Below, one piece after another: positions 1 to 64,000 of a stretch of 64,000 nucleotides of DNA. The notes under the pieces were generated by a model that worked only from the letters and a program-made list of their open reading frames with translations, was not told the origin of the DNA and made no database searches. The translations under genes were made by a program, and so were the position numbers. The stretch is taken from positions 11,594,001-11,658,000 of the forward strand of contig JASFXZ010000016.1 in NCBI GenBank assembly GCA_032209605.1, read 5' to 3'. The number at the start of each line of letters is the position of its first letter. Within the stretch, counting starts at the first letter, position 1. The stretch comes from Mactromeris polynyma. Its lineage: Eukaryota > Mollusca > Bivalvia > Venerida > Mactridae.

Positions 1-7
1 CTGCCAT
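1..7 (-). CDS. Start codon of a second B-box gene copy (body outside window)
   Basis: The first seven bases read on the minus strand as ATG GCA G, the same start (Met-Ala) and the same following 5' flank as the B-box/Deltex-like gene that starts at 60581. The flanks of both start codons stay alignable for several kilobases, so this is very probably the first codons of a tandem paralogue whose exons lie to the left of the window. Only the start can be seen here; whether the rest is intact is unknown. Confidence 0.6.
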
Positions 8-3190: not shown

Positions 3191-3894
3191 CAGGTAACTT
3201 TCTGAAATTTAAAGTCGTTATATATCCAAATATATTTAATACATTTTATATTAAAGACATAAACGTATTTATTTTCGTTTTCATATTTAGGACTTATATT
3301 TCACTGATTTGTGATATAGTATCGATCGAAACAAACATTTTAATATGTAAACATTGCATTAAAAATGTATTGACCTACCTAGTGCATATAGTCCGGTTGG
3401 TTATACTTCGAACAAAATGTATAGACCACAAACACCTCAAAACACATAAATCTCTTGACATCAAGTCCCCGGATATAACAGGGGAGATAACTGATAAAAG
3501 AATGTTATCCTTTTAAATGTAAACTCAAACCGTTGTAAGATTAGACTTGCAGTATTTATTCGATATGTAAAACTTCTGGTTTAAATCTTTAACGCATGTG
3601 CATAGCTCTACTAATTTTAAGAAATATGCGTTTAAAGTAAATTTAAAATAATCCTAGGCAGAACTTAATCAATCAATGACAGTGCATTTAGTCTGGTTAT
3701 ATTAAGTTAAAATGTAATGACACAATCCTCTAGTAGTAAAGTAGAAGGTCATTGACTGCGACCTTGTCCTCGGAGGTACTTAAAATATCTCATATTTTTC
3801 ACACCTCTAAAAGTCAATGTTTAAACCTTTAAATGGATATACATTGAATGGAATAATCACTTTAAATAATTATAAAGGAAGTTAATAGAGGTTA

Positions 3895-4445
3895 AGTTGC
3901 TACAGGCAAGGCACTCGTACACTAGAAAATGCGTCCCTATGCAGAAACCTGGGAATTCCACAAAATATCAGGCTTCACGGACTTGCAAGGGTAAGGGGGC
4001 ACATGGAATGGCCTGACCGACCATAACTGAGGACAATTAAGGAGGATTCAGGAGGATGAACAGGAAAATTTAATGGATGGAATACATCACAAATCAAGAA
4101 GCAACAATCGGTCGAATATATGGTCGCATCAAAGATATGTAAACGTGTGTATATCTTCTATTCGAAAGGTGTTGAAAGAGAGAAAATAAGTTGCTAAAGA
4201 GAAAGCCACATACATAAGACAGTGCCTCCCCACACAAATCTCCGGAAAACGACAATCCATAAAACATAGGGCATTTGAGGAGACTCAAGGGCTGATACTT
4301 AAGGGAAAAGGCGCAAGGATTAGGATTAAGGGACTACTATGAGAATCAAAGAGGACAAACAAGGGGGAAATTAATGGATGGAAAATATCACAGGACAAGT
4401 CAATACAGCCGGCAACAATAGGCCGAAACTGGGAAGAAACACTAT
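3895..4445 (-). repeat. Dispersed repeat family (GGGGAGGCACTGTCTT family), two units
   Basis: Two adjacent copies, in minus orientation, of a repeat found about a dozen times in the window. On the minus strand a unit reads from a TTAATTTCCCC-like start through ATGTTTTATGGATTGTCGTT to a core GTGGGGAGGCACTGTCTTAT and then a GTGGC.TT.CCTGT.GCAAC tail. It has no coding capacity that I recognise. The same pair occurs in the paralogous flank at 63170-63740. Confidence 0.7.
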
Positions 4446-42280: not shown

Positions 42281-42359
42281 TTACTGAGTAACATCGGATT
42301 CCTTGATTCCTCTCTTTTCCAACTGCTGTCTCACTCGGTCCATGTACTCCCGATACGGC
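42281..42359 (-). CDS. Deltex-like gene last exon: end of the DTC domain
   Basis: Acceptor AAATACTATAG, phase 2. Encodes PYREYMDRVRQQLEKRGIKE and SDVTQ, then TAA. Matches the family's closing YPDPTYL..V..EL..KGI. Confidence 0.83.
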
Positions 42360-45300
42360 CTATAGTATTTGAAAATTAAAATAGTTTTAACATTTTGATA
42401 GTGATAAACAAGCGCACACATCTGCAGACAAACTGCTTTGTTCAACATCGGCATAAGTTTAGGTTCTTGTAAATTAATGCTATTTCTTAGTACTGTTGAT
42501 ATTTCCAAGTATTGGATGGAAATTAACGCATATATATTTCAAACCATTCGCAGCATAAGCATTATTCAATTACATCTTCAATGTTTATTTTATATTTATC
42601 ATTTGAGGATAAAACATAACTAAGATTAGGAAGTGGACGATAATACCTAGAAAGGGTGAATATTGTCTGAGAGATTTACACTGATGCGGTTCCTACATGG
42701 TATTGATTTATTTTTATTTTTGCGATTGGTTTACTCGTTACTTGTTGTGACAGCTTCGATATAATGAACTGAATTCTCGTCTAAACCAGTCAGTGGTCGT
42801 CACGTACCGCGGTGTTTCTGTCTGTTAGGTATGACAGCAAGATAAATTTACTAACGACGTAATGATAATTTCTGGTAACATGCTATAGCCAAATTTTGTT
42901 ATTTTCAGAATTAATAATGCGAATCAACCCTAATTTTATCGTTATAGTCCCATTTGCAGTAACGTACACTGTTTTATACCTTCTTTTTTATCGAAATGGA
43001 TTAATGATTTCGTTTCAAACGTAATTGTTCGAACAAAGCTTTGAAAAGTTCGCATCGTCACAGACAAGTTTACATACATATCAGATTGCAAATTGAAATG
43101 ATGTATGTACAAATGTAAAAGTGTAATATTTAAAATTGTTCCGGATGTATGTTCAAACATATCTCCTATTAAATATCACACATGTTTTGAAAGCAAACTT
43201 GCTCGTAACGTATATACACTAAATAATCGGTTCTAGTATAAGGTACCACTTCAGTGTTGTGAAATGGCATAATTATAATTTTCCAATACTTTTATTTCTC
43301 TTTCTGTAACATGTATTTAAAATGTAACTTGTCAATAACGCACCTAATTGTATTATTGTTATTACATTTACATAGTGCTTAGAAAAATAATCATGTACAT
43401 GTACCAACAATATATATATGTACCAATACGTATTTAAAATTACAAATTACACTTGTACAAATGTATAGATGAATTTATAAATCTGTGCCCGACAAAAGTT
43501 TGGTTGAAATGTCTTACCTGTCCAAAAAGGTGAAATTAGGCAATGTATACTTCAATAATTTATTTCGCATTACATAACGAGTGAAAGGTTGATTTTCGAA
43601 ATAATGACACGTGACAAAACATTCACATGAATGTTACGGACACAGATATATGCATATTATGAAAGTGTAATGTTTTGAAACTTTAGTACATCATGTTATA
43701 TTTAGCGGAAATATTCATGCAAGTATCTAAGTGTAAATTCACGATATCAAGACATCAAACATGTATTAACACGGATATACAAATCATCAAATAATTATCT
43801 GCTGAATGCATTTCAAGTTACTCAAGGTATCAATACTTAGTATTTCAAAGGAGATTAAACATATTCTATACTGTGAATATACTACCAGGATCATGTAGTC
43901 AGACAGACTTTTAATGTTGAATATAATTTCGTTATTCTGGTGTCAGTGTCATATTAAGGGTAATTGGCGTTGAAACTTCTCGAATCAGAAAATGTGTGGC
44001 AAACGAACCATCAGACTACGGTCATTGAGTGGTCGATATGTTTTCCTGACGGTAAGCCCAGAGTTTGCAATAAAGCGATGAACAAATAAAATACTTATCG
44101 GAAACAATACTTTTAGTCGATACTTTGTATAGTGTTGTGCATCACGTTTTATGAGGAAATGCCGTCTGCTAAATATGCTACATGTAACATGATAAATAGA
44201 ATTCGGTCATCTAAAAGATGAATGCGTTATTAGAACTATCATTTATTTGCCTTGTAATGTACATAATGACACGATGCTGTTCATTTTAAAACGTATTTGT
44301 AGAAATACTTACATGTCCGAAGTTTGAAATCTAAAAGAAAAAAACAAATGTACAAATATTACAGGTATTATATAGTTGATATTACAAATACACACTATGC
44401 TATTTACTAAACACACATTATTTTAATACTCTGAGACAAACAAACACGATTCGTAAAGGCAATATATAATACAATGGACATAACATACCGTTATATAAAA
44501 CGCACTGGTTCATTGTGTATATACATGTATGTATGGAAGTGAATAAATATTATAGTCGGTTAATAATTTGTGTAGAATGCATTTATTTTAAAGGTTTAAT
44601 CCAATTAAATATGCAAAGAACACATTCGCATTTACTCCCAACAAAGAAACGAAATTATGTAACAACTTTATCCAGTTAATTTACACCACGTATTTGTATA
44701 TCTACGTTTATCGATACTCGTGAATATTTAAAATACAGCGTAAAAATAATCATAAAAGTCAAGCAGAAAACGCCACATAAAACGCACAGTCGCCGCACAT
44801 ATACGAACAGACATGAACAGATATTCATTGACAATTATAACTTGAAACCTGACAGACGAAATAAAATTAATAATGTTCAAACGTATATTTGTTATAGCTT
44901 TGGATAGCAGTATCTGGACGTTTGCTCTAAATGATTTTGAAGGGCATTTTAATTCAGCTACTCTCCTCATTAAATGTTTAACAAATAACAGCAAAACATT
45001 ATTGTACTGCACAATTCCATAGGGCTTAGGAATTGCCTCAATGTAATTAAGACACCTATGTTATATATGTACAGTTTAATGTTAATATTAACATTTATTT
45101 TCTCAATCATTCCTATTGATGCACAAACTATGAAAACATGCAATATAGTTTAATTTGTTTTCGAAGGGTTAAATTATTGATTCGATGTAAAGTATTTTTA
45201 ATAACCAATCTACGTTGGTATATATGCAACTGAACCAGGTGAAAACGCAACTATGTGCACACCATTCAAATAGACATATAAAGGTTCAAATGCTAATCAT

Positions 45301-48300
45301 CTGAAACAGTTGTTGCTAATGTTGCTTCAACTTATATAACTTACATATAAACAATTTCGGATCAGATTCAGGAAAGTCTGATTAACTACCGCAGTGATAA
45401 TATGATCAGATATATATTATATATCGGTGCATGTGAAAGAAATATAAAAAAGTTGGAAGACTTAAAATACTCCTAAAATCGATTGTTTTTCAAATCGAGA
45501 TATTGTTAGAAAATATAAGTATGCCGATTTATTATTTGAGAAAACGTAAAGAATATGCTAAATTGATTTGCGGTGGTTCTTCTTACGTATTGCGTCAATG
45601 TAGTACGCTAGACAGTACGTGTTGTTAATCCATTTCATACTTGCAACATGTCTACCGCTAAATATGCTACACATTACATGAAAACTAGGATTCAGTTATC
45701 TTAAAGATGAAAGCGTTATTAGAAAAATAATTTGTTTGCGTTGTAATGACACGATGGTGTTGATTTAAAGACATAATTGTAGAAATAATTTAATACTTAC
45801 AATCTGGTCCTGAAATAAAAACAAATGTAATTGGTGTAACATAGTTGGTATTACAAATACACACTATAACATTAACTAAACATGCATCCTTTAATACTCT
45901 GAGACAAACACACATGAAACGTAAAGGCAGCATAATTTATAATACAATGGACACAACATACCGATATATAAACGTACTGGTTCATTGTGTATATACGTGA
46001 ATATATATTTTAGTCCGAAAATAATTTGTGTGGTATGAAATTGTTTTAAATGTTTAATCCAATTCAACATGCAAAACACATTCGATTTACACCCAGCAAA
46101 GAAACGATATCATGTATCATGTAACAACTTTATCCAGTTAATTTACAGATAGTGTTTGTATATATATGATGATTAATCCTCGTTAATTAAGACACCGATA
46201 TTATATCAACAGGTACAGTGTTATGCAAATACTAACACCGACTGACTGATTCAATGACTGTTTTAAGGACTCAAAATGCAGTCTCAATCGACGAACAAAA
46301 TGCAATTGAAACTAAAAACGGTCTTATGCGAAACTCTGATACAATAAAGCACGTTCTATAGCAGAGTCATACAATCAGTCTTGTTATGTTTAAAGTCTAA
46401 CGGACATAATATTCAGATATATTATCAAAGTAAATGAATTGTACATAGTCATTATTGGAAATGCTTGTTTGGATATGCGGGTATACGTTTTGAAAGGTAC
46501 AAAGGTACACTCGTTTATAATAAAGACAACGACTGACGGAGTTATTTTTTATTTGTTCAATTAAAATACTGATAGCTGTTCTGGACCTACCAATGTCAAA
46601 ATATGTTAATACTATATACATGAACAAATACATGTTGCATTTAAACACCTGCACATTTATGATAAGAAATGGGTATTTCAAATTCCTTCACATATTGCCA
46701 ATTTTCAGCAAACAATATACACAACATGATATTTGAAAAAAACGTAATCTTCAAATCCAATTTCTGCTTAATATATTGAAACCGTAAAGTAGAAATGTGC
46801 CCATGCGACTCATGTGCTCCCACTTTCCTGTCATAGATTTTACTCAGCTTGGATACAATCAATGAGGTTTGCTTTACTACGGAGATTAAATCCAAACTGC
46901 ATGTGTGTTACTCAGCTTGGATACAATCAATGAGGTTTGCTTTACTACGGAGATTAAATCTAAACTGCATGTGTGTTTAGAATAACTGTTTCGCCAGAAA
47001 ATGTTTCGTTCGGAGGTCTGCGCGGGGAGGCACTGTCTTGTGTATGTGGCGTTCCCTGTATTCTCTATATTTTCTATTATGTAAACAGTGACCTAAGATA
47101 CAGGTGATCAAAATGCAAGTTCACAACATTCAATCATTGTGATCTACTCTCATACATTGGTAGAAGTTTGATCAAATTATCTCAATTATATTTCTACGTA
47201 TTGAAACTAAATCGATTTTCTGTTTTCAGTGCAATTGACCACTAGGTTAAAATAAAATCGTAAACTAGGACTCTGTGAAAGCTAGATACATAATGTTTCT
47301 TAAAAAATGTCACTTCATACTTAATTCATTGGCCGGGGACTGTTTTCATTACCGAGCTAGGAACCATACAAACTTAGCTTTTTTCACAATTTATCTCCTG
47401 TCAACCACCACACAACCTTTATTTTTGAAATGTCTTGTAACCCTAGATCATATACGTTCCGAGAATTACCCGACACAAACTTGTAGTGTTCTAACAGGGA
47501 ATTTACGATTTTATTATATACTTGATATGATCTCATAAACGCTAAGATATTCCTAAGAATTTTCGAATTTTAGGTCATACATGTTTAGAGGCATATGCGA
47601 CACATAAGTTGTATAAAGTCATGAGTTATAGAACTTTCGATTGGTTGAATCTAGGCGTAAAGACGGTTAAACAATTCCATTCTACGAATGATGGTGTAAT
47701 AAATTCCGTTATATTTCCTAATTTACTTTTCAGATATGATATAATTTGATATTCTGCCAATACCTTCTTACGAAGACGAGGGACTGAATTCGGTCCTTAC
47801 ATATCGAACAGAAACAAAATGTGCTAGGTTCGCAATTTTATGTTATCGCATACAGTTTTTTTTACATATGAGCACTACTTACTTAATTGGATTAAACGGA
47901 CAGACAGTAGTACATCCTATGCCCCGATTTTTATGTTCCACAAAATAATAATTAAATTTCAATGTCATTATCTTAATGCAAAAATGAATATAAGTGTTTA
48001 AAATGTATGCTGTTGATGCAATTTTGATTACCAGCTTTAGAGTGAGGCATGTTTTATCATCTAAATGGATCCATATTTGTCGCACACCAAGGAAAAAAAG
48101 CATAACATAGTTTCATATTCTTTAACGACCTATGATTCTAATGATTTACACAATATAAGACTACATGTACTACATGTATATCCTGCCGACGTTACATTTC
48201 TCCAGATACCTGAAGTTTTGTTGTGTTTTTATATTACACGGAGTTCAAATAGATAATAGTGATGATTCATATTCATTCGTACAACGTTTCAAAATTAATC

Positions 48301-51300
48301 TAATACCGATTATATTGTAGCGGAGTCGCATTAAAAAATAACATTTATATTATGCCAAGCGTTTTTGATATAGATGGGCCAAAATCTGATGGCACAATAA
48401 CATTTACTCATGCTTATTAATCGACTGTTCCACTTTCAATAAAAGTGGTGAGCATTATAGTCTCGGTCAATAAGCGCTTGGGTCGTATAAAATTACAGAT
48501 CTATGAATATGTTTTCTTATGTTTTCCCGGTATTTTCTTTTGTTATCAGCATACAATAACTTAATAATTGTAATACTGAATAAATTCATTTGCAAAATAT
48601 GGTTTCAGCATTTATACGAAATTGTTCAAGGCTCACCAGCAATGTCTGTGCTGGACTTATTAAAGGAGCAGCGCAATCGGTGATGCTCATGTGAACATTT
48701 TGGATATTTTTCCTGCGCTGCTAAGACAGAACGATGCGTTCAGCTTCAGGTTTATACACATTTGTATTGTGATACACCACACATATCTCATGAAAAGCAT
48801 GCTGCTTTCGCGCTAAAAAGAATTTATGAAAAACAAATGAAACTCGGGATTCGAATCAGATGCGTTGGGATTAGGACGCGTTTCCATTACGCTATGTAAT
48901 AAACACGCACATAGTTCGTATCTATGCATGTATATGGTTTTTTTTAAAAGCCGAACAAGCACCAATATGATTATGATCATTGAACTAACTTACAATTAGA
49001 TATGAACTGATCCAACCAATGACGTTTTGTCATTGTTATTAAATGAAATCACAATATACTCATATATAACTGTCACACTCATTCGCTAATTAATACGGAA
49101 TTGAAAGGACTTACACTTAATCATGCATCTTATGTAATGAAATCAATAGATTAGACTTGATATTAATTGATTGAATTTCTTTTAAGATTGTATTTTAAAA
49201 TTTTGATAAAAAATAACGCTATATGAATGAAGCTATAGAACATGCAAGGGTACACAGTATTAATCGTTGTTTGTAATTTACGGCATATACGACAATGATC
49301 AATGGTTCCTAGTGAGAAAGTATCAACTGAATAGAATTATATTTAAACTATGCCGTTAATGAATGCCTACAGAGTAACAATGCAGTGAAATATATTTACA
49401 TCGAGCGCGTGACCCTGACATTTACATTTAATGTAACTACGTATTAGAATACATGCTTATGAAATTGAGTAGCATAGTATTAACGTTTGTAGAAAATCAA
49501 CTTCGATCTGAAACATGTACTTAAAGTATTAATACGTGTATAAGTGGAAAAGGAAATTATTTAAAATATATCGTTTATGCATACAGAGTAAAACTACAGA
49601 GAAATGCCATAATAAGTCCCTAAACTAGAAATTGAAGATGTTTTAGTGAACAGGCTTATGAAGTTTCGAAATGAGAAGCATGGTATTCTCATTTTGTAGA
49701 TGGTCAACTCCGAACTGATTCATGCTATCTAATTGTAGCGTATCACATACTTAAGGTTTCATACAATGGAATATGCGGTGCTATAACATCTTTAATCATC
49801 TTTCAATTGATCGAATTATACAACAAACACAATAATAGTTAAAGTAAATCGAACATCGAGGAACCATAACCGTGGCTTAGCATTTGTAGATGTAGCATTG
49901 CCGGGAATCACAACATACCATTGATACAAAGATGGTCATTGTTCAATTGTTCATTCGAATGGTAAGTATCATTCATCTTTGAGCTTTGTACAATATACTT
50001 AAGGTGCATTATCCCTATTTATTTTTATTGTATTTAACGTTATTATTCAACATATTTTTTCAATCATTCTAACTAATTGTCCAATAATTAATTATCAACC
50101 AGTCCTAACTTGCTCTTCCGCATGAAGGTGACAACTACCCACTTGAATCACAGATGGGGGGAAATAACCGCAACCATGTATCACTGAATAATTGAACCGC
50201 CTGGTAATCGAACCCAGACATCCAATGCGATAGTCAGGGAATCAATCAACTGAGTTAACCAGGGACTTTGTTCAGTTATTCAAAATGTACAGGACAACGG
50301 CTGTCATTTAGTGCTTTATAGGACTATGTTTATCAAAAGTTATATGGTTTTGAATTCGGTGTTTTAACCCAAAAATAAGCTATGCGAGGTATTAGGACGG
50401 ACAACTGATGCACCAATGATTATTGATAGTTTGTGTATTTGAACACTATTCATCTTTGAACTTTGTAGTATATTCATGTTTTAAATATACTATCAGTTCG
50501 TATAGCTTTGTACATATTCATTTTATAATGTTTAAAGCCATTGTTCAACATCTGATCACACGTGGATTACAGGTTGAGGACAGAGTACCGCAATCAAGTG
50601 TCATAGAAGACCTGATCCACAAGATACTCGAACTCTGGTATCGAGCAAACTGTCTTATAAGTATATTCTTCTGACTTATTGCATGGAAGTTTTGCGTTTT
50701 ATAATAATTTACTACCTGCGCCATAATTGTAACCGATAATGTTTTATGTAATGACGTAGATATTTTTTCAATCACGGATGTTCTAATAAGCATTGTAGTC
50801 CTGGTACGAATGTTACTATATGGAGATACACGAAATATTTTTAGACGTACATATTGGGTTGAAATATTATGAACGACGGTTTCGCGTTTCTCATAAGGCG
50901 CAATTACTTGAGTTACATGTATGTTAAGTTAAACCGATTGAAGATACCTAGAATTATGTCATTAATAATGAAATTTGTTCCAATGTAAACTTGAGATATA
51001 TGCATCACAACACAGATTAAAATATTAAAACCAAGTGTTATAACCTTTACAGGGATTAGTGAGTTTGCAACATAACGTTTTTCAATGACAGCAATGTTCT
51101 GCAATCGACAATTTATTATAAACTAACATTTTTTTGTGTTCAGTGTGTATAGAAAATAGGCGTGTTAGAAATGAAAATGGTTGAAGAAAATAACGTTGAT
51201 TGTATTGGTAGTGAATAAAATGAACAAGAAATGTTGTTTCAGGACGCATATTTGTATAAATAATGATATACTTACGATGTAGACCTGAAACAAAAGACAA

Positions 51301-54300
51301 ATACAAATATATCAGTTGATGATTCGTAAAAGTGAAAATGATTGAAGAAATTAAAGTTTACTCATTTGAATGGTAACTATTATTTATCTTTGAACTTAAT
51401 GCATTATGTTCATGTTTTCAATCTACTGTAAGTTTGTTCATCTTCGTACATATTCATTTTATAATGTTTAACGCCATTGTTCAACATAAATTTCACTCGA
51501 ACTAATCAAATGCCCTGGTATTTATTATCAACCAGTTCAACTTGCTTTAACCACTTGGATCACAGATTGAGGGCAAAATACTGCAAGCATGTGTCACATA
51601 AGACCTTATCCACAAGAGAATCGAACCCTGGTATACAATATGATAGCTAAGCGATCAACCAATTGAGTTAACATGCCGGGCGGATCTTTGTTCAGTCATC
51701 TAAAATAATTATATCGGATAACGTCTATCACTCAGTACTTTATAGGACTAGGATTATCAAAAGTCATTACATATTAGATGATACGTGTTTCAAAAAAACA
51801 ATATGCGACAGCTGTTACAGCGGAACGCATTCAATACAGAAACATTGTAGCTTTTTCTGTAGATTTGTTATCATATTTTCCAATTATATTGCACGAATTT
51901 CCATTGTTTACAACTCGAATTGAACGTGTGTGTCAATACTAGGATAGTATTTACATAATATGCAGATACACGCATGCTTGTATGACTTTTTGTATGGAAT
52001 TTTGGTAGGTAGGCTACTTAGTATTATAGTACAGACATTCATATGATATGACACATACCAATTGGCATATACATAGTACTTCCAGAGCAATATCAATAAA
52101 GCTTTGATCTGTTCATTTCCAGGTTGATTCGTGATTTCATTTCGTTCATATTAAAACATTAAATTTAATGATTTTCGTGAAATGCACCAATTTACGAGAA
52201 ATCCCATTCTCCGGATTGCCGGTCCGTTATGCTAACCACTACACCATAGCGACTTAGCGTCATTTTCGTGTAAATTTAACTTATAAAGTAAGATAATGTT
52301 AACTACACTCTTTCACACATATAATATGAACATTATAGCTACTAATAAAATGCATAAATTATCACCCACATCTCATGACTTTATCAATTTACATTGATGT
52401 CTGTGGACATTGTTTTATGCATTATGTCAAACACAAGCAATCGATTTGTTACATATTACACGATCAGTATTTAATTCCGTCTGAGTTTGAGACTCTATAA
52501 ATAAAACCAAGTATACAACCAAATATAAACTTACCTAAATAATTCTATTCCGTTCGTTATGTTTCCGTGGTTGTCGACAGTAAATACGCATTTCCGTTGA
52601 AAAGCTATATTCATCATCTTCAGTATTATCTTTCCTTTTGTGTTATTGACAAGATAACATGTTACTGTTTTACCCGAATATAGTCGTCCTGGACTGCGAT
52701 TTAATTTCTGTAATGTAATATATTTCATGAAAATTTAATGCACAATATAGACAACATAATTGATACACTTATTTAAAGGAAATTATCATTGGAAATCATT
52801 TAATATAAAACTGACTAACATTACTATAAATACGCATGGTTTGTAATGATACAGTGTATAAAATATATTAACATTCATACTTCGCATACCTAATTCATAG
52901 CTTCCATTTCACATTCAACTTCCTTTATATTATAAATATCAAGTAAATGATTCTTATTTTTGTCTGACATTAACCTGCTTACACTGTATCGTGTAATTGA
53001 TTCAATGTCTATTACATTAACATACCTTTTTATAATACTATAAGCGGCGTTAGCTTTGTTTACACTTACTTATTTCATATCGATTTTGAAAGTTATTACA
53101 ACTGACATAAGGGTAGGATTAAATGACAATAGGGAAAGCCGCATTCATACGACAATGCCTCACTACACTGATTACCAGGGCATCATCAGCATACGACACA
53201 GTAGAAGTTGAGGAGGTGTAAGAGCAAACATCTATGGGGATGTTGAAATGAGGAATTGTCGACCTAATTATCAAAAGATAGAGAATAAGTTGCTGCAGGG
53301 AACGCCACATACAAAAGACAGTGCCTCTCCACACATACCTTTTGGAAAGCAACCATCCATGAAAAATAAGGCATTTGAGGAGGCTCAAAGGTACATACGT
53401 AGTGGGACATGGGCAAAACGGAATGGCCTGGTCGACCATAAGGGATATATATGAGAATCAAGGAGGACAGACAGAAACATGAACTGATTAGTGAACAACA
53501 ATAAATCACTCTCTTGCTACCCCAGTAACGAACGTTCGTGCCAAATTGAGGGATTTTGGATTTATCGGATTAACCTCGATCACAAGGGATTCGAAACCTT
53601 GACTGTCAAGTTAGGATTTAGGCGCTCTATCACAAGAACACTGCGCCTCCCATTTGCTTCTTCCATCGTATTACAATATTCATTTGTTATACGAATAATC
53701 GATTGTCATTTAAGTTACTTGGTTTTATTATTCGGCTTCCAATGTTTTATGGATTGTTGTTTTCCCGGAGGTCTGTGTGGGGAGGCACACTGTTATGCAT
53801 GTGGCGTTCCCTGTAGCTACTTATTCTCTCTCTTTCCAAGTATTATGTACGAAAAGATGTTGCTTAATACATAAGTATCGATCAGTATCTTTAAATTGAT
53901 GTGTTTGTTTTTACAACAAGCATACCGAGGGTTCATCGCAAGACTATCCTAACTCCTATGTATTTATGTAGGAGTTAGAATAGTCTTGCATTGAACTCTC
54001 GATACATATAAACTTTCTTAACATCGTTAAAATAAGTTAACATCATATTTAAAATCACATGTAAAAGGTTGCTTTGATTTAAAGTGTTTATATGAGTTTT
54101 CATTGAAGTTTTCCTTTTTCATCAATAATGTTGTGAACACTTAATTACGTCCGTTCTTATGAATACGAAGCGCATATTTCAGGAATCAATTGTGATCTAA
54201 ATAGTTATTTAAAAGACATCGACATCTTTCCGAACTAGTGTACATTACTGTATCTACATGGACCTTAACATTTCCCAAACCTGACTCAAATAAATTGTCA

Positions 54301-57300
54301 TGAAGCCAATGTGTTTCACATAACTTGATAAAATGCGACATGCATAAAGAATTTGAACGAACAATTCATTTCAAATTATATATATATGTCAGCAATTTGC
54401 TTCTTAGGATAAAAATGATGCATAGAGTAGACTTGATAATAATTACCAACAATATACATGTATTAGCGTTTTATCGCAGATACTGGTGTAAAATTAAAAA
54501 CATTTTGACAGCGTGTACGAATTAATTTCATACCTGATTTAACATCGCGATATTTAGCGTAATATTGTTGTCTCAGATATCAAACCTGATTTTACAATAT
54601 ACCATAAAGTTACTTACCGACTGAGTCCCTTTAGGGAATGCAAATGTCAGCTCAATCTTACGTTGTCCGTCGTTTGTACTAAATGTACCATTAGGCTGAT
54701 CTTAAAATATAGATGTACGATTAGGTATTAATGTAACTTAGATAAATGTATTATAATTATGGCGCAAGGAAATGTATAGCCATCAATTAATCTCCCCATG
54801 TTTGTCCTCCTTTATTTTCTAGTTGTACCTTATAGTCGGCCTGGCCATTCCTTGCACCCCTATCCCCTTATTTACCCATGAGCCTCCGCAAATGCCTTAT
54901 GTTTTACGGATGTTTTTTTATATACAATTTGAATGTAATTATCGATTAAAATGATCGAGAACATACAATTGAAAGATGATAAGTAAAGTTTATGTGTATG
55001 TACAAAAGTTAATGACAATCACTAGATCTAGTGTCTTGTTTTAGTATGTTTGGCTAAATATGATAAAAATAAGGTCATACCACCATTGATGATTCCACAT
55101 GTGCGACATGTTATCAGCCTGTTTTCGCCAAAATGTACAACGAAGTTTTCATGTCCGCAAGGTAGAATGACAGTTGGCTTAAATAAAAAAGTAGTTATCG
55201 TCCATGACCATTACTTCGATTTCCTTTATAGATATTGACGTGAGAAGTTAGAACCAAACTCGTAACATAAGTCACTTAAAGTAACATGTTATTAGGTAAA
55301 TTATTTATTAAAATAAATATGTCGTGATACGAAGACATTTAACCTGAGTTGAAGAGCATATGCTATTGGTATGAACAATACTGTATTCATCAGCGCCGGA
55401 GCGATATATCGGCAGTTTGGTACACCTGTCAGGCGACCTGGTGGGACAGAGAAAGAGCCACTTTGAGGGCTGTTTTCCATGGTTGTCTTGTTCATTATGT
55501 AAAATAGGTCCTTAAACAACAACAAAGTGAACAACTAACCACAACAATCATACAACACGTTATTCAACTAAAACATAGTCAATTTGCACTCCGGTATTCT
55601 GAGTGAAACCATTTATTCTAGGTAGTTCTTTGTCCTTAGCAACTTTGAGTAGTGAATAGTTCAATTATATTTCATCGTTGCATGAGTGTCTGAGATCAAG
55701 TCTTCCACGTGCTGTTTGCTCCAAAGAAACGAGTTCTTTATCATTGAGGCAATGTTATATATGTACATATATTTCGATAAATGTTGCTTTCACAGAACAA
55801 TATAGAACATGCATAATGGAAATACAATTTTATACAGTACATATTTCCTTTATTTGAAATGACGCATGCATAATCTGACGGTTGTTTTATCGACTATATC
55901 CTTCATATAGTGTTATCATTCGAACTATATTGTAGACTACGGTTATGTTTAAAAGGTTTGCTGTCTGTTCATATGAGATGAAATGGAAACAACTAAAAAT
56001 ATATAATGTAAATATAGAATTAGCACAAAAAAATTGATACAAAAAATGAATTAATTTCATATCGGTGAATGTACATTAAATTACTTACAAAGTTCTGTTT
56101 CATGGCATCAAGTTCTTGTTTCAACTTCGAAATTCTTCCCTACAAAATGTCTTATTTTATTCAATGTTTAATGATATTTGCTTTTTGTGATAGAAATACG
56201 TTGTGTCCCTATCTTACAAGTGAGTGTTGTATTAGTCTTTAATTTATTAAACGAGTTGAATGAAATGATATAAAGCGAATTCAAAAGGCATACATATACG
56301 CCGGTTAATGCGTACCTTCGAAAATATTTTACAAGGTCATTTTGATATACTCGTAAAGGTACTTTTAACTTTGAGATTAGTAGAGTGTGTATTGACTCGA
56401 AGGATGTAAACGGCAAACTGCATACTCAGACCATCCATCGTATTAGAAGTTGGCGATGCAATATTTATTGCATTTTTTATTCAATACATGTTATGTATTA
56501 CTTACGTCATAATTCTGTTTCGTGTCAGCAAGGTCTTTATTCAGCTTCGATATCACATTCTAGAATAAACATGTAACATTTGAAGATGTTTTACGTTCTA
56601 CATATTGATTGATATCAATTAATATTAACTCCTTGTATGATTGTACACTATTTATATCAATTACCAAAAACTACTGGTGACGAAAACGTGTGCATTGTTT
56701 TCGATATGTGAATTCTAATTCAATCTTCGGTCATTTCTCAATTGACACATATTTCATTTTTATTTAAACAGAACAGGGAAATTATGTCCGGAAATCAGCG
56801 TATTTGCAATTGGCGTTCGATGAACGGGGCACCCGATGTGCATTGGAAACATTACATTGATAAGACATTCCTGTTTACTCGACTGACAACATCGTTCACA
56901 GAGTTCAAAGAATTAAATTGCAAAAGAAGCATGAACCATCGTATCTGCAGTGGACAGAATGGGATATATTACCAAGTACTAAAGCGAAGTTTCTCGCGAG
57001 TGCGGGTATAAACAGGGTCCACATTGAACTCATTTTCAAGCGGTCAGTGGAAACAGGTGTTACTTCTGTTTTCAGAAAAATAGTTCAAGGGTCGGAAAGA
57101 TAGAGGTCAGCGTTTGTAGACATATGGAAATCGTCAATGATGATAATTAACTTTCAAATGGAATATATTCATTTCCACAACTATTACTCAACGTTGCATT
57201 AACTCTTTTTTTATTTGAGTTTAGAAAATATTTTAGTACAGTTACCTTTTGTTAAACTGTATATAGTGCGCAAATAGATTTGTTGAGGTAGATGCAGAAT

Positions 57301-60300
57301 TTGTCATTAAATATATCATTAGTTTTATATGGGTCATTACATACAGCGAAAGAGATTAACTACTGATAATCAAAATAACGATTGACGACGTCAACGTCAT
57401 AAAACACGCATAAACTTACGCAGCGCCTTTTCTTTAAAATTAAATTGTGAAAAACCTAACTCGTTGACATATCATTTTTATTTCAGTTTTCGTCTACCCA
57501 CAGTTTCAGAAAAAATATATCTAAAAATCAGGGCATGTCACCGGGCAAATTATTGAGCCAATCATCTTTTAATAGACGATCATCCTGGTGTTTTTAAATT
57601 TAAAATACGCCGACATTTAAGCGATTCCGGTGGATTTTATCGTCCGCGCGGCGGATTTTCAGCGCGCCCGCTAGGTGGCGCTGTGACGTCGCCAACTTTA
57701 TTTTTTTCGTAAAAACAAACCTTGATAACAATTTCATATTTATTGTAAAGTATTTCTACCAACTTTTATAACAATCGGTTAACTTAACGAATTTCGCCCA
57801 CAACGTGTGGAACCACCTTAAATAGAAATATATGCAACTATGTAAAATAAATGTTCTTTCCGAAATCGTACATATTTTGTGAAGTACTTCCTTCGGGCAA
57901 AAAGAGGATAAATATTTAGGTTGTCATTTGTATGTATAATTTGCATTGTAATATTGTAACATTTGTATATTTATCACATATCCATGCATTGTTCTAAGAT
58001 GCCATCAATATCATATGGCACAGTGTGCATATAATATCCAAATGAGCGGAAACAACGAAATGAAATTCATACGCTGCTTGTTTACAATTAACAAAATGAG
58101 TAATGGATTTACCACATCGCCAACTTTGTGTGTATTAAATTAGAATGCTCATGAACGTTGCAGCAAACTCAAAAATAAATACTATATCATTTACCGTTAA
58201 CATGCAAGTTATGACAAATCTACTAAGCATGTCCAGCAAAATTCTCCCAATCTACCTATCTAGTTCAGTGAGTTTATTCCATCTCAAACGATTCGTGTTT
58301 TAGGCGACATCAACATGACATCAGTGTACACACGTACTTGTAACAAGTATATTGATCATTGTTCGAGGAGGTCAGTCCTATATCAATCATAATGAACTAG
58401 ATTATGCACACTTGATAGCGGTTCGAATCAGATGGATTCACTGAATTTGATGAAATTTATTTGAGGAAAGTTTTTCCCTTATTTACGTTTTACAGTTACT
58501 CTTGCTTTTAGCGAATTGATACATTTATTTAACAAACTGGAAACTGATAACATATTCATAGATCTATGGATAAATTTAGAAATAACAAATTTGTGAATGG
58601 GGATACTTTTTAGATTAATGAGGGCAATTGAACAATGTGTGGTTACCTTATTTTATCGGGTATGTGATAAATAGAATATTAAATAAGTGTTGTTTGATAT
58701 TAAATTTATTGAACTTCTTATATAACAGGAATATGAAGCTTGACAGAAGCTCGCTTGACATCATTTTATTCAATTCGTTCAATAACTTTAATATTATACA
58801 ACACTCATTCAATATCCTCTGCATATATATCGCAGATTGTCAGTGTTCAGATATACTGCATACTTTGTTTGGTAAGATTTCTGAAAATATCAGAAGTTTC
58901 ATGATGGTCCTGTACCTTTTGTCTGTGTTAAACTGATAATATTTTTGATTGTTACATAAATCTAGGATATATGTAGGTCACATATAATATTATTACAAAG
59001 TATTGTATGAGCTAAATGCGGCTAGGCATTTTGGCTCATTTTGAGTTTTACAATATTTCAATACAAATATCGCACCACAAAATAAAATTGAAATACATCC
59101 ATAATATAGTTAAACTATCAATACTTAATATTTTATTGGTATATGAATTAACATTACTAGACATTGTAAATATGTAGCTGCTATGTAGCTATGAAAATAA
59201 TAATGAAGTGAAACAAGCTTGTTATCACCCATACCTGGTTTTCTTCTAATTGTTGTTCTAGCCCTTTAATTATCTCACGTTCCTTTTTTATGCCGATGTC
59301 TTCCTCGTCTTCTTTGTCTTAAAAGTAAATTGTGTATATCAAGAATGGTTTAGTTACAAGTTCGCTATGTATGTTAGTGAAAGTGGCATCTGTGGTCGAG
59401 TGGTAATGGTCGCTGACTTCGAATCTCTAGCCACTCACCGCTGCATGTTCGATTCCCACCCAGGATATAGAATTTATCAGGAAATCATTCAGCGGTTTTA
59501 CGGACGGTCGGTGGTTTCACGCAAGTGTCCGTCTGGTACTTTACTACTTATGTTGAATCTGGATTGTTATCGTGACTTAATGCCCCATTACAAAAAGGAT
59601 GCCAAATACCACAAAACATGTTTTATATGCTAATGATTAGATTATCGAATGATGCGACAGTATGAGAGGAAACTGTAAGTATACTTTAATATTAACAATT
59701 TATATCTTACCATCTTCTATATGACTGGCGTCTGTAAGCCTGCCAATTGGTCGTGTGTTAGACATCATACGTTTGAGAAAGTCGCTAGGTCGGAATGTGT
59801 AATCGGTAATGGCATTTTTGCAATCAATGGCTGCAATCTCGTTTTGAATTCGGGCTACTTTATGCATAGTTTCAACAGCCATTATAAAACGTTTGTGAAG
59901 CATATCTTCGTCCCTCATATTTGTAATTATTTCTTCGACTTGTGATCCAAGAGACTGTATATCTACCTTCAGTTTGTCGAGTTTATGATAATGAGCTGAT
60001 TCTCGCACTTTGACATCATCAAGAAGTTGCTGTTTTGATCCTGCTACGTATTCTACCAGTGATTTCGTAAACGATTCTATATTCGATATACAATCTTTGT
60101 TGATCGTTTCAGCAGTTTTTGTATGTTTATCAAGTGCTTCCACGCATTTAACCAGGGTGTATTCTAGACCTTGCACTTCCTCAAGCAGACGAGCAAGGTC
60201 TCCACTATTTTGAAACCGATTTGACGCTTCTATTATATATTCCCATTCACATGACTTATGACGCAGCAAAATACACTCTATGCATACGCAACTTTTGTGT

Positions 60301-60581
60301 TCAGTGCAGTATGCCTTTACTTCCTGTTGCTTATGTTCTTCGCAAGTTCCAAAGCGGATTGCACTATCTTGTATATTGTTTTCATGCCAATCCTGATGCA
60401 GCACGTGGTCCCTGCATGATTTACTTTTCAGGTGTTTGTCAAAGCATATTTGACAATTGTATAGTTCACACTGAGAGCAATATCCGTCGTGTTCCCTCTC
60501 ATTGCAGATTTCACAATTTTCTCGTTGACCGATAAATGTCCCATCATCAACTTCAAAATTGACTTTTCCGTCGACTGCCAT
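42281..60581 (-). CDS. B-box/coiled-coil protein with degenerate RING and Deltex C-terminal domain
   Basis: Twelve minus-strand exons join in one frame (550 codons plus stop): 60581-59711, 59317-59235, 56559-56506, 56139-56089, 55469-55344, 55177-55081, 54700-54618, 52707-52535, 51284-51276, 45809-45801, 44330-44313 and 42359-42281. Residues 23-59 form a type 1 B-box (Cys23, 26, 35, 38, 43, 46, His59) and 80-111 a B-box 2 (Cys80, His83, Cys92, His95, Cys100, Cys103, His108, Cys111). A coiled coil follows to about 350. A RING-like segment (ICSSTQ, LPCGH, CRTC) leads into DQPNGTF, ELTFAFPKGTQ, SPGRLYSGK, IAFQRKCVFTV and YMDRVRQQLEKRGI, the order of the Deltex C-terminal (DTC) domain of DTX E3 ligases. 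DTX enzymes join ubiquitin to ADP-ribose signalling and DTC binds ADP-ribose; a role here is inferred. The acceptor of exon 5 and the microexons are the weakest parts. Confidence 0.78.
44155..44705. repeat. Tandem duplication, copy 1 (carries exon 11)
   Basis: Aligns with 45645-46165 at an offset of about 1.48 kb: CTAAATATGCTACA, GATGAA.GCGTTATTAGAA, ACACGATG.TGTT, AATACTCTGAGACAAACA and CAACTTTATCCAGTTAATTT are shared in order. Confidence 0.85.
44313..44330 (-). CDS. Deltex-like gene exon 11: 18-nt microexon
   Basis: TTTTTTTCTTTTAG, then ATTTCAAACTTCGGACAT, then GTAAGT. In the assembled frame it codes mainly FQTSD, near the HHKTS of relatives. Could be alternative to exon 10. Confidence 0.5.
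45645..46165. repeat. Tandem duplication, copy 2 (carries exon 10)
   Basis: The partner of 44155-44705; each copy has one microexon with the same donor and a similar acceptor. Confidence 0.85.
45801..45809 (-). CDS. Deltex-like gene exon 10: 9-nt microexon (GACCAGATT)
   Basis: TTTTTATTTCAG, then nine bases, then GTAAGT. It lies in one copy of a tandem duplication whose other copy holds exon 11 at the matching place. Confidence 0.5.
46841..46976 (+). repeat. Tandem duplication of a 68-bp unit
   Basis: TACTCAGCTTGGATACAATC through ACTGCATGTGTGT is present twice back to back (46841-46908 and 46909-46976), with one visible difference. The unit is part of a minus-strand open stretch of about 85 codons whose identity I do not recognise. 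Confidence 0.9.
46995..47065 (+). repeat. Dispersed repeat core (GGGGAGGCACTG family)
   Basis: GGTCTGCGCGGGGAGGCACT then GTCTTGTGTATGTGGCGTTC. Confidence 0.75.
47066..50080. other. Intron of the Deltex-like gene; nothing further recognised
   Basis: AT-rich intron sequence between exons 9 and 10 with short non-informative frames. A tRNA-like motif in minus orientation occurs at about 48840-48900 (GATTCGAATCCCGAG on the minus strand) and may be a SINE remnant. Confidence 0.45.
50085..50275 (-). repeat. tRNA-derived SINE (nearly full)
   Basis: Minus strand: TTAACTCAGTTGATTGATTC (A box), then CTGGGTTCGATTACC (B box), and a body ending with AAGTTAGGACTGGTTGATAA. Inside an intron of the Deltex-like gene. 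Confidence 0.78.
50540..50645 (-). repeat. SINE fragment
   Basis: Minus strand: ACCAGAGTTCGAGTATCTTG (degraded B box) followed by TGGATCAGGTCTTCTATGAC, also seen in the SINE at 51475-51685. Confidence 0.65.
51276..51284 (-). CDS. Deltex-like gene exon 9: 9-nt microexon (GTCTACATC)
   Basis: TTTTGTTTCAG, then nine bases, then GTAAGT. It keeps the phase 2 frame. Confidence 0.5.
51475..51685 (-). repeat. tRNA-derived SINE
   Basis: Minus strand: GTTAACTCAATTGGTTGATC (A box), then CAGGGTTCGATTCTC (B box), TGTGGATAAGGTC, and a tail with AACTGGTTGATAAT. Confidence 0.78.
52200..52262 (-). repeat. tRNA-like remnant
   Basis: Minus strand: CGCTATGGTGTAGTGGTTAG followed by CATAACGGACCGGCAATCCG, like a tRNA 5' half with A box and anticodon arm. 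No B box follows, so it is a SINE or tRNA fragment and not a working tRNA gene. Confidence 0.5.
52535..52707 (-). CDS. Deltex-like gene exon 8: core of the Deltex C-terminal domain
   Basis: Acceptor ACATTACAG, donor GTAAGT, 173 nt, phase 0 to 2. Encodes KLNRSPGRLYSGKTVTCYLV, NNTKGKIILKMMNIAFQRKC and VFTVDNHGNITNGIELF. It matches the family pattern HP.PG..Y.G..R.AYLP.N.EG...L.LL..AF....IFTVG.S.TTG, although the usual His and some Gly are changed. Confidence 0.85.
53110..53480 (-). repeat. Dispersed repeat (GGGGAGGCACTG family), two cores
   Basis: Minus strand copies around 53140 and 53310: TGTGGAGAGGCACTGTCTTT, TGTATGTGGCGTTCCCTGCA and AATGCCTTATTTTTCATGGA. Confidence 0.75.
53560..53655 (-). 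repeat. tRNA-derived SINE head
   Basis: Minus strand: TTGTGATAGAGCGCCTAAAT (A box) and GGTTTCGAATCCCTTGTGAT (B box) at tRNA spacing. Confidence 0.7.
53730..53840 (+). repeat. Dispersed repeat (GGGGAGGCACTG family)
   Basis: AATGTTTTATGGATTGTTGT, GGAGGTCTGTGTGGGGAGGC and ATGTGGCGTTCCCTGTAGCT. Confidence 0.78.
53927..54001. repeat. Perfect-looking hairpin in an intron
   Basis: Arms 53927-53958 and 53969-54001 are inverted copies (AAGACTATCCTAACTCCTA against TAGGAGTTAGAATAGTCTT, with one or two mismatches) around a 10-base loop TGTATTTATG. The stem is about 32 bp. Confidence 0.88.
54618..54700 (-). CDS. Deltex-like gene exon 7: start of the Deltex C-terminal domain
   Basis: Acceptor TATTTTAAG, donor GTAAGT, 83 nt, phase 1 to 0. 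Encodes DQPNGTFSTNDGQRKIELTF and AFPKGTQS. QP.G.. directly after the RING, then a strand and GTQ, is the opening of the DTC domain in DTX proteins. Confidence 0.83.
54780..54915 (+). repeat. Dispersed repeat, upstream half
   Basis: AATTAATCTCCCCATGTTTG, CCTTATAGTCGGCCTGGCCA and GCCTTATGTTTTACGGATGT, the part that precedes the GGGGAGGCAC core in complete copies. The core itself is missing. Confidence 0.7.
55081..55177 (-). CDS. Deltex-like gene exon 6: degenerate RING
   Basis: Acceptor TTTTATTTAAG, donor GTATGA, 97 nt, phase 0 to 1. Encodes PTVILPCGHENFVVHFGENR then LITCRTCGIING. CGH and CRTC match the third/fourth and last RING ligand pairs; the middle CxxC is replaced (F..H) and the first pair keeps one Cys only, from exon 5. 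Confidence 0.8.
55344..55469 (-). CDS. Deltex-like gene exon 5: linker up to the first RING cysteine
   Basis: Donor GTTAAA after ACTCAG. The frame that fits the next exon reads PSKWLFLCPTRSPDRCTKLP, YRSGADEYSIVH and NSICSSTQ. The acceptor GGAAAACAG at 55470 gives phase 0 and restores one frame through the whole gene, but its pyrimidine tract is poor; an acceptor at 55511 (GTTTAAG) would need an extra exon upstream. Uncertain start. Confidence 0.55.
56089..56139 (-). CDS. Deltex-like gene exon 4: 51-nt coiled-coil exon
   Basis: Acceptor ATTTTGTAG, donor GTAAGT, phase 0 on both sides. Encodes GRISKLKQELDAMKQNF; compare SKLNKDLADTKQN in exon 3. Confidence 0.78.
56506..56559 (-). CDS. Deltex-like gene exon 3: 54-nt coiled-coil exon
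   Basis: Acceptor TTATTCTAG, donor GTAAGT, phase 0 on both sides. Encodes NVISKLNKDLADTKQNYD. It is similar in sequence and splice sites to the next exon, so the two arose by duplication. Confidence 0.78.
56740..59230. other. Intron of the Deltex-like gene, one GC-rich patch
   Basis: Contains an open plus-strand stretch at 56742-57011 (with MSGNQRICNWRSMNGAP) that I do not recognise, and a GC-rich patch at about 57625-57690 (GTCCGCGCGGCGGATTTTCA, CGCGCCCGCTAGGTGGCGCT) that stands out from the AT-rich surroundings and may be part of a mobile element. No further exon of the gene is supported here. Confidence 0.4.
59235..59317 (-). CDS. Deltex-like gene exon 2: coiled coil
   Basis: Acceptor CTTTTAAG, donor GTATGG, 83 nt, phase 1 to 0. 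Encodes DKEDEEDIGIKKEREIIKGL and EQQLEENQ, a charged heptad-like helix continuing the coiled coil. Confidence 0.82.
59385..59545 (+). repeat. tRNA-derived SINE in intron 1 of the Deltex-like gene
   Basis: GTGGTCGAGTGGTAATGGTC (A box), GCATGTTCGATTCCCACC (B box), then a body with CGGACGGTCGGTGGTTT. It lies 60-70 bp upstream, on the plus strand, of exon 2 of the minus-strand gene. Confidence 0.75.
59711..60581 (-). CDS. Deltex-like gene exon 1: two B-boxes and coiled coil
   Basis: ATG at 60581 in a favourable context (ACATGG). Open for 290 codons. Starts MAVDGKVNFEVDDGTF; B-box 1 CEICNEREHDGYCSQC, B-box 2 CEEHKQQEVKAYCTEH followed by CVCIECILLRHKSC, then a long helical region rich in E, K and L. 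There is no N-terminal RING. GTAAGA donor after GATG, phase 1. The B-box-only N-terminus is typical of the expanded TRIM-like families of bivalves. Confidence 0.92.
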
Positions 60582-63500
60582 GTCTACTGTACAATGTATA
60601 TAACATTTTGAAAATATGTAAAAATAAGAAGCTTACAACATATTATATCCAAATTGATAGATTTGCCCTGTCGCTTTGTTGTTATATTAGTTGGTTAGCA
60701 ACGAACTACGAGATTGAGGTGTTTGAATTATATGTTAGTGTTTAATTATGTTCATTTTCTTTCGTACAGACTGCCTTTAACTTTATGTTAATAATCATAT
60801 ACATGTGGTGGTGTTTGTATAGTGGTCAGTTATAATATGGTCTACGTCTACTGTAGATCCACCATTTAACATGCACTAGTTCAGACAATGATAGGTTTGT
60901 TTTGCAATAAACTTCCCCCTACTATTTGTTGACTGACTATTTTGTTTTGTCGTTGAGTATTAAACTAAACTTTAGCGAATTAGGAATGCAAATGTGGTTC
61001 TTTACGGCGGTTGCTTGTGATATAATTGTTCAACTTAGTTAAAAGTGTTGGGTGATTTTAATAATTATCTAGTTAAAGTGTACCTTACAAGTGGTTTCTA
61101 CGAGAGCGAGCGCGTCAACTTAATCAAGCGATCGCATGCAGTCCTTATTAAACCGAAAGAAGGTAAAATGTCAAAAGCAAAATGATTACTTTTGCAAATG
61201 CAATCTGTTTCATGTATTGATGTTACAAGAATGGATGAACATAGACAAAACATACATTTCGCTTAAAATTACTCAATATCCAGGTTTCATTTTGTAAAAA
61301 TATTTTGCAAGTATCTTGATCAAAAACGCATTTAATATAGAATAGACGGATAAAAAAACGATTAAGGTTATTTTCTCATATCTGTAGTTTATTTTTATCT
61401 AGTTTTAGATTAAGAATATGTTAATAAATACATGAGTTTCTAGAAAAGCTTTTCATTAGCCAGACTATGTACAACTACCAAATCTACTAACCCGTTTTGT
61501 TATTTGTTCTTTTCATATTGGATCATGAAAGGTTAATGTCATACATCACATTCACATCAAACATGTCTTTAGGAGATCGCGAATTAACACAAAGTAGTAT
61601 ATCCTCTTGATAAAAAGTTTAGCACATAAAATAGATGTTAACTTCCTGTTTATGATCCCCGGTTGATGAAAGAGCAATACGAAACCCGTACATTGACTCT
61701 ATTATTATATTCAAAACTAAATATGCATATCGACTTCTGTAATACCCGCTCGTGTTCAATTACTATCTTACCGTTTAGTATTACGTGTTCTATTGACACA
61801 CTTAAACTGGAGATAAACCCAGGTAAAATATGAAGCACTTAAGTATATGAGTCATCTGTGTATAACTTGTACACTGTATACAATTTTGATAAACACTGCA
61901 CTGTCATCATTTAACAAGTCGTTACATGACAAGTACAGAAGAACTTCGAAACATCGAACTGCCATCGGATCTTACTATTAGTTCGAGCCATCTAGTGTTC
62001 GGTTCGATGCATGTATGGTACACAAGTGTATGTACGAACTGACTGTCCCCGGTACAAGTTAGATATACTGAAAGCAGGACATCTATGTGTTACTTGTTTT
62101 GTCATATTGAATGTAGGTCGATTAATAGTCTAAGCACTATTCATTATATCAAAATAAAAAGCAAATGCAAGGAAACCAAATATATTTTTCAATTTAGACT
62201 CACAATAACAACAGGCATCGTTCGTTCATGGAAGCATGTATCGATTCATGAATAAACTCCAACATACATTATCCATTATTAAAACGAAAAATATAATAGA
62301 TTCCGCGTCGAATTTATGCCAATAATTACAATTGGGCATACTTTTTTTACTGAAATTTCCACTTTTGTTTAAGGTATTTATAACAGACGAAAACTTGTTG
62401 TTTTAGAATTTTAGTATGTACTTTCGATTTGGTGGCCCGTCGCCATTCTTCTTACCTTTTCACGACAAAATTTCACAGCTACTAAATCATGTAACTTTCT
62501 GAAATTAAACGTTGTACTATGTCCTAATATATTTAATACATTCAATATTAGCGACATTAACTTGTTCATTTTCGGTTTCATATTTCGGGCTAATAATAAA
62601 TCCTGACTTATAGTTTACCTATTTGTGATATAGTATCGATCGAAACAAACATTTTTATAATGTAAACATTGCATTAAAAAGAAATGAATTGACCTACCTA
62701 GTGCATGTATCCTGGTTGGTTATACTTCGAACACAATGTATAGAACACAAACACCTTAAAACACATGACACGTTTGATATCAAATCCCTGGATATAACAG
62801 GGGAGATAACTGATGAAAGAATGTTATCTTTATGAATGTAAACTCAATACGTTGCAAGATAATGTATGAAACATTTATTCGATATTTGCAAAACTTCAGG
62901 TTTAAATTTTTAACGCACGTGTGCATACTGATTTTAAGATATATGCGTTTTAAGTAAATTAGGAAGATTAGGTTAAAATGTAATGACACACTCCTCTAGT
63001 AGTAAAGTAGAGGGTTCTTGTCTGCGACCTTGACCTCGGAGGTACATAAATTAGCTAATATTGTCCACCAATCTAAAAGTAAATGTTTGAACAAACTGTG
63101 TATATATATACCTTGCATGGAATAATCACTTTAAATAATTATACAGGAAGTCTAAAGAGAGGTTAAGTTGATACAGGGAACACCGCATACACAAAACAAT
63201 GCCTCCCTATACAGAACTCCGGGGAAACAAAATTCCACAAACAGTCAGGCATCAAGGAGTTGCAAGGGTTAAGGGGCGCAAGAATGGTCTGACCGAACAT
63301 AACTAAGGACAACTCAGGAGGAGTAAGGAGAATGAACAGGGGAATTTAATGGATGGAAAAATCACGGAAGAATTCAAGAAAGCTAGCAACAATCGGCCGA
63401 AAATATGTATGCATCAAAGATATGTTTACATTTGTATATCTTCTATTCAGAAGGTGTTGAAAGAGAGAAAATAAGTTGCTACAGGGAACGCCAAATACTT

Positions 63501-64000
63501 AAGACAGTGCCTCCCCACACAGATCTCCGGAAAACGACAATCCATAAAACATAGGACATTTGAGGGGACTCTAGGGTACATACGTAAGGGAACAATCGCA
63601 AGGATTGGCCTTGCCGAGCATAATGGATTACGATGAGAATCAACGAGGACAAACAAGGGGGGAGTTAATGGATCGAAAAGATCACACTCACAGGATAAGT
63701 CAAGTCAAGAAAGCCGGCAACAATAGGCCGAAATCGGGCAGAAAACAACACGAACACTATTATAAAGTGAAGGAAATGCACAGCGGCAAGGGAAATCCAA
63801 CACACATCCAGTGGCCATGCCCAAAATGTTGGAGACAATATTATATCAAGTTAGAAAACTGCATATGGGGAAAAGGGAACTTAAATTACTCACAAAACAT
63901 ACGATCACGAGATAACTTGTAAGTATTTCATGTAATACTGACATTTGAATAAGTTTGAGTCCTGAAAACGTGTATGAAATAATAATAATTGTATAATCAA
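60582..64000. repeat. Segmental duplicate B: 5' flank of the Deltex-like gene
   Basis: Paralogous to 8-4560 in the same order, without the 1.46-kb transposon (empty site near 62485). Probably holds the promoter on the minus strand, but no clear core promoter motif is visible. Blocks kept in both copies, such as TGATATAGTATCGATCGAAA, are candidates for regulatory sequence. Confidence 0.85.
63170..63740 (-). repeat. Dispersed repeat (GGGGAGGCACTG family), two units
   Basis: Matches the pair at 3895-4445. On the minus strand: TGTGTGGGGAGGCACTGTCT, TAAGTATTTGGCGTTCCCTG and AAATGTCCTATGTTTTATGG. Confidence 0.75.

Follow-up and report, generated by a model that had tools for sequence, protein, structure and literature searches.

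The 64,000-nucleotide stretch of the Mactromeris polynyma genome analysed here (contig JASFXZ010000016.1, positions 11,594,001 to 11,658,000 of the forward strand; hereafter the window) carries on its minus strand, between 60581 and 42281, a locus from which a single gene of eight exons can be built. Its 1491-nucleotide coding sequence would specify a protein of 496 residues, in which a TRIM-like part with two B-boxes and a coiled coil is followed by a Deltex C-terminal (DTC) domain. All introns are bounded by GT and AG, the seven junctions agree in phase, and neither a stop codon nor a frameshift interrupts any of the eight exons; the reading frame therefore looks maintained. A fusion of TRIM-like and Deltex parts is probably real, and a single gene that holds both, as proposed in an initial annotation of this DNA, appears to be the best model. 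Exons were called from splice sites, phases, codon score and homology. The splice matrices were generic, and the codon model had exon 1 as its only training sequence, whose richness in coiled coil biases it towards exons 2-4; exon 8, which contains the stop codon, lies outside codon scoring.

Exon 1 (59711-60581, minus strand, as are all exons of the model) is an intact open reading frame of 290 codons that starts with the ATG at 60581 and ends in phase 1 at a donor of 8.3 bits. It encodes residues 1-290, with B-box1, B-box2 and the first coiled coil. Its first zinc cluster has the B-box1 pattern C-x2-C-x8-C-x2-C-x4-C-x2-C-x3-H-x8-H, and the second has the form of a B-box2. When exon 1 was compared with solved structures by phmmer, TRIM28 was matched across both boxes (E 1.7e-4, residues 22-161), and weaker matches were obtained with TRIM25 (0.0088) and MID1 (0.023). 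The two B-boxes and coiled coil that the initial annotation had placed in this exon are upheld by the zinc clusters and the TRIM28 match, but not by Pfam, where B-box2 scores 20.6 bits, under its cut-off of 24.1, and the B-box1 alone (a 50-residue piece) yields a sub-threshold ANCHR-like B-box match of 19.5 bits against 27. Because the B-box2 score is below its cut-off, it is the tandem pattern that carries the TRIM assignment, in place of any single strong domain score. A low-confidence predicted structure of exon 1 (mean predicted local distance difference test score 44.5) contains helices between residues 114 and 274. No RING precedes the B-boxes in exon 1, where 22 residues stand before the first B-box1 cysteine; no search for a coding exon was made beyond 60581 on the upstream side. 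With B-boxes followed by a coiled coil, the order used to recognise TRIM/RBCC proteins, the protein is TRIM-like and not a full RBCC protein.

Since the exons beginning at 56139 and 55177 both start in phase 0, exon 1, which ends in phase 1, cannot join either of them directly; splicing it straight to one or the other would break the frame and was rejected. The matching phases described in the initial annotation hold only when two exons absent from its list are added. These are exon 2 (59235-59317; KEDEEDIGIKKEREIIKGLEQQLEENQ), the best linker in an enumeration restricted to phase 1 to 0, and exon 3 (56506-56559; NVISKLNKDLADTKQNYD), which emerged from an enumeration restricted to phase 0 to 0. 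Both would extend the coiled coil, as would exon 4 (56089-56139; GRISKLKQELDAMKQNF; phase 0 to 0), which is open and flanked by AG and GT. Exons 3 and 4 are duplicates of each other, with a local DNA score of 42 against a maximum of 24 over 2000 shuffles. When 401 candidate exons, many of them overlapping forms, were ranked by codon and splice score, exon 2 came first and exon 3 fourth, and exons 6, 7, 4 and 5 stood 8th, 12th, 15th and 28th in list order. The exon boundaries were chosen in this analysis, and junctions 4-5, 5-6, 6-7 and 7-8 join exons that the initial annotation had already identified, either by a motif or by a coordinate. The segment 55437-55344 was rejected as an exon: its acceptor scores 11.6 bits, but its codon score is negative, it lacks C-x2-C and its phase is wrong. 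A longer form of this segment may account for the 550 residues of the earlier model, a length that the present one does not reproduce.

Exon 5 (55081-55177, phase 0 to 1) was described in the initial annotation as RING-like, and this is true of its second half only. In the alignment, residues 360-381 correspond to that half of the DTX1 and DTX2 RING and retain zinc site 2, formed by C360-x-H362 and C377-x2-C380; an alternative donor three bases earlier, at 55084, leaves the phase unchanged. Ligands 1 and 2 are absent, the position of ligand 5 is taken by F365 and that of ligand 6 by a gap or by H368, and the coiled coil leads directly into PTVILPCGH, so that the complete RING with eight zinc ligands expected ahead of the DTC in DTX proteins is not found. 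Between exons 4 and 5 (56088-55178), none of the 149 segments bounded by AG and GT (9-200 nucleotides, length divisible by three) is open and contains C-x2-C. The sole C-x2-C candidate between exons 1 and 5 (59710-55178), at 58259-58224 with three overlapping forms (IGRLGEFCWTCL), was rejected as the first RING half since it comes before coiled-coil exons 3 and 4 and does not adjoin the RING. An in-frame C-x2-C at 55533 was also set aside, being isolated and without a surrounding exon.

The DTC domain would be assembled from the last three exons, and the five motifs quoted in the initial annotation do occur there in order on the minus strand (54701-54681, 54641-54621, 52695-52669, 52608-52576 and 42346-42305). 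Exon 6 (54618-54700, phase 1 to 0) carries the first part, DQPNGTF...AFPKGTQS, and was placed by alignment. Exon 7 (52535-52707) carries the second, SPGRLYSGK...IAFQRKCVFTV...NGIELF, supported by the Pfam DTC match, a donor of 10.5 bits and alignment; an acceptor at 52688 scores above that at 52707, yet does not fit the phase of exon 6 and was rejected. Exon 8 (42281-42359) encodes the C-terminal helix YMDRVRQQLEKRGI, including Q483, and the stop codon, and was placed by a phase 2 junction match and alignment with DTX3L. The first AATAAA/ATTAAA beyond the stop codon is at 41387, about 0.9 kb away. The match to the DTC profile (PF18102) reaches E 6.6e-14 and 52.7 bits against a cut-off of 25, confined to positions 22-85 of the 133 in the profile, and the full 496-residue model scores 47.6 bits. 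In the profile check suggested in the initial annotation, the DTC domain is recognised, as expected of a DTX protein, whereas the B-box stays below its cut-off and the exon 5 piece has no Pfam match.

Of the three Deltex proteins for which solved chains were found, DTX3L is nearest (E 1.5e-8), followed by DTX1 (1e-6) and DTX2 (9.1e-6), and the two-residue AR insertion of DTX1/2 is absent from the DTC of the model. Relative to DTX3L, roughly 4, 9 and 17-18 residues are missing; the exon 6 region is 9 residues shorter, around LPGYESFG, and 17-18 residues are gone around the strand and loop bearing HHKT. As the alignment runs almost without a break from exon 7 into exon 8 (NGIELF-RPYREYMDRV to GGPEMYGYPDPSYLKRV), exon 7 itself appears to be the site of this loss, which gives no pointer to a skipped exon. 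Residue numbers of DTX2 and DTX3L were put on the PDB rows by counting back from the C-terminus, with what we take to be the full lengths of these proteins. HHKT is absent from the model, and the position of DTX3L H707 falls on a gap or on H460, depending on gap placement. DTX3L Y719 corresponds to F470, and E733 (E608 in DTX2) to Q483, so that the catalytic Glu is not found; the position that follows the final RING Cys, occupied by Lys473 in DTX2, is a gap. Deltex ligases attach ubiquitin to ADP-ribose, and DTX3L attaches it to nucleic acids as well (passages in PMC7615817 and PMC11460948). Extracts of the DTX2 study describe His582 and Glu608 as strictly conserved in DTX proteins, and report that E608Q markedly impairs formation of ubiquitin-NAD+ and that Lys473 mutants have a limited effect (PMC7615817). 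In DTX3L, H707, Y719 and E733 are required for nucleic-acid ubiquitination according to a passage in PMC11460948, and H707 and E733 also figure in part of PMC10810221.

A missing HHKT exon was sought in two ways. Five Deltex-like patterns were searched on the minus strand of the 10.2-kb last intron, where H[KR][TS], the loosest of them, was the one pattern with matches (8), and a hidden Markov model (HMM) of the loop, built from three sequences, gave a top score of 5.8 bits over 3533 six-frame open reading frames. DIMHKT at 52419 on the minus strand scored 5.1 bits with this HMM and was rejected because by eye it has no usable acceptor. The surrounding DIMHKTMSTD resembles Deltex DIHHKTS and lies about 115 bp past the exon 7 donor, probably by chance.

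The gene is part of a tandem duplication, the evidence for which is confined to the regions upstream and to the start codon. The upstream region 60575-63744 is a direct duplication with 1-4439, in three blocks at 73-83%, all in the same direction: 1-647 aligns with 60575-61241 (83%), 694-1727 with 61369-62489 (73%), and 3191-4439 with 62488-63744 (78%). Furthermore, bases 1-7 read ATGGCAG on the minus strand, matching the start of exon 1, in a copy cut by the left edge of the window. This places another copy of the gene, or at minimum of its start, about 60.6 kb to the left. Within the window, tblastn (E below 1) returned no B-box or DTC piece beyond the exons of the model.

Other features of the window include a 177-bp satellite unit that forms two oppositely oriented arrays (22678-23469 and 24235-25443), a fragment of a Mutator-like transposase on the minus strand (8008-8604; PF20700, E 1.6e-43) and a plus-strand open reading frame (32347-32706), in which a membrane-spanning stretch and a tail of cytoplasmic type can be made out by eye and for which the Pfam NDNF_N match is sub-threshold (23.2 bits against 25). 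Scans with Rfam at gathering thresholds and for tRNAs gave no matches, NCBIfam gave none near any cut-off, and 31 pattern matches among viral contigs included no relatives.

We consider it somewhat probable that the locus is one tandemly duplicated eight-exon gene encoding a TRIM-scaffolded pseudo-Deltex, whose tail would be non-catalytic or weak-binding. A binding or decoy role seems more likely for this protein than an enzymatic one, because the tail is without most of the parts that such ligases work with. By analogy with TRIM proteins, the B-box/coiled-coil part would most likely dimerise or cluster the protein. The tail may be viewed as a remnant of a DTX3L-type RING-DTC, in which the Deltex core strands and last helix would persist, and from which RING zinc site 1 and the catalytic pairing of His and Glu would have gone; it would most likely act as a scaffold, or as a decoy competing with active Deltex proteins. 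The ligase function put forward in the initial annotation is not supported by a tail with one of two RING zinc sites, a DTC domain short of 17-18 residues and Gln at the Glu position. Nor is the ADP-ribose sensing proposed with it, the 17-18 residues having been lost from the stretch with the ADP-ribose-contacting His, and the suggested antiviral role would follow from family context only. The name "protein with a Deltex C-terminal domain" is justified. Filing as a DTX ligase is not, because two defining features of these ligases, the complete RING and the catalytic Glu, were tested for and not found.

Several points weigh against the pseudo-Deltex interpretation. The codon-model scores of exons 5, 6 and 7 are at or below background (-1.8, -0.1 and -4.5 bits), and the acceptors of exons 5 and 6 are weak (3.5 and 1.7 bits). 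MAFFT sets H460 beneath the catalytic His, so that loss of this residue is not certain, and a RING exon with atypical splice sites may have been overlooked. In addition, the last intron holds an open 189-nucleotide candidate exon with SLHKT, in phase 2 to 2, at 50800-50612 on the minus strand (acceptor 6.5 bits, donor 1.6 bits), the best of eight overlapping forms; its SLHKT is one of the eight H[KR][TS] matches. It was left out of the model because inspection by eye revealed neither Gly-Tyr-Pro nor W-N-x-I nor any further Deltex motif in it, a choice that transcripts could overturn, and it is not among the best 14 matches of the loop HMM. Finally, the decoy action is something that we infer.

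Three other explanations deserve consideration. It is unlikely that the gene encodes an active fusion ligase, in which TRIM-type assembly would bring a working RING-DTC to ADP-ribosylated targets, with the RING half on a missed exon and H460 replacing His582 or His707. The DTC score over the Pfam cut-off, the placement of H460 by MAFFT at the catalytic His and the intact RING zinc site 2 are in its favour, but no segment in 56088-55178 supplies the C-x2-C, the lone candidate (58259-58224) lies on the wrong side of exons 3 and 4, and Q483 is the same change as the impairing E608Q of DTX2 (passage in PMC7615817). The gap at the Lys473 position also counts against activity, with little weight given the limited effect of the Lys473 mutants in extracts of the same study (PMC7615817). 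An improbable alternative is that of two genes, one with B-boxes and coiled coil that stops in frame just after 59711 (ending in SHIEDGKI) and a separate Deltex-like gene downstream. Three codons beyond its donor, exon 1 indeed meets a stop, which makes an unspliced form possible, and 4.5 kb separate it from the RING exon; yet its donor is good (8.3 bits) and coiled-coil exons 2-4 connect in phase. A separate start codon before the RING exon, which the initial annotation had named as a sign of two genes, gained no support from a scan of 56088-55178: the one ATG exon there that could be spliced to the RING exon, by a phase-0 donor of at least 2 bits, encodes four residues. The interval 59710-55178 has three more ATG exons, encoding only 12-13 residues (donors 4.4-6.4 bits), and no ATG lies upstream of the RING exon in its own frame. 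Doubtful as well is a decaying or chimeric duplicate, in which segmental duplication would have put a TRIM-like gene before a dying Deltex copy and left a tail without functional product: the tandem duplication, the eroded RING and DTC and the weak codon score of exons 5-7 would fit, but the eight uninterrupted exons and consistent GT-AG introns would not.

If the locus does encode a TRIM-scaffolded pseudo-Deltex, a fusion with an eroded site would have kept its Deltex tail for a non-catalytic purpose, and would offer a test case for DTC binding without the catalytic pair; were it active instead, the Glu of that pair would not be indispensable. Quite tentatively, it may represent a tandemly duplicated family with a natural Glu-to-Gln change as in the laboratory DTX2 mutant, clustered by its coiled coil and competing with or organising active Deltex ligases in ADP-ribose/ubiquitin signalling. 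A family with both B-box and DTC would matter for invertebrate immunity. In work on bivalve gene family expansions, the orthogroups OG268 (Deltex C-terminal) and OG708 (B-box) appear in tables as separate entries (extracts of Regan et al., 2021; PMC8382680). By our own reading of the tables in those extracts, captions aside, both are expanded in bivalves, and the extracts contain no statement of one protein with both domains (PMC8382680). A word search of a paper on TRIM origins gave no mention of Deltex (PMC3503706), and among the matches listed from the open-licence literature no title or abstract start describes a B-box/DTC fusion. Protein searches gave no matches, even with an alignment that included DTX1, DTX2 and DTX3L; the collection searched therefore probably holds few animals, and the result is not evidence of rarity.

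Compared with known systems, the tail resembles the DTX3L/DTX3 type in its DTC core strands, NPGK-like SPGR segment, last helix and lack of the AR insertion, and in having a RING remnant immediately ahead of the DTC. In contrast to that type, the model is without RING zinc site 1, has Gln for Glu and has residues missing; where DTX3L has RRM/KH-like domains, it has a B-box/coiled-coil N-terminus. The latter is like TRIM28 (TIF1-beta), MID1 and TRIM25, with B-box1, B-box2 and a long coiled coil in the same order. Unlike in these proteins, no RING was found before B-box1 (upstream of 60581 not having been searched). The usual TRIM tails include PRY-SPRY, NHL and PHD-bromo. To these can be added MATH, as stated in part of PMC3503706, and in the protein described here all such tails would be replaced by that of a Deltex.

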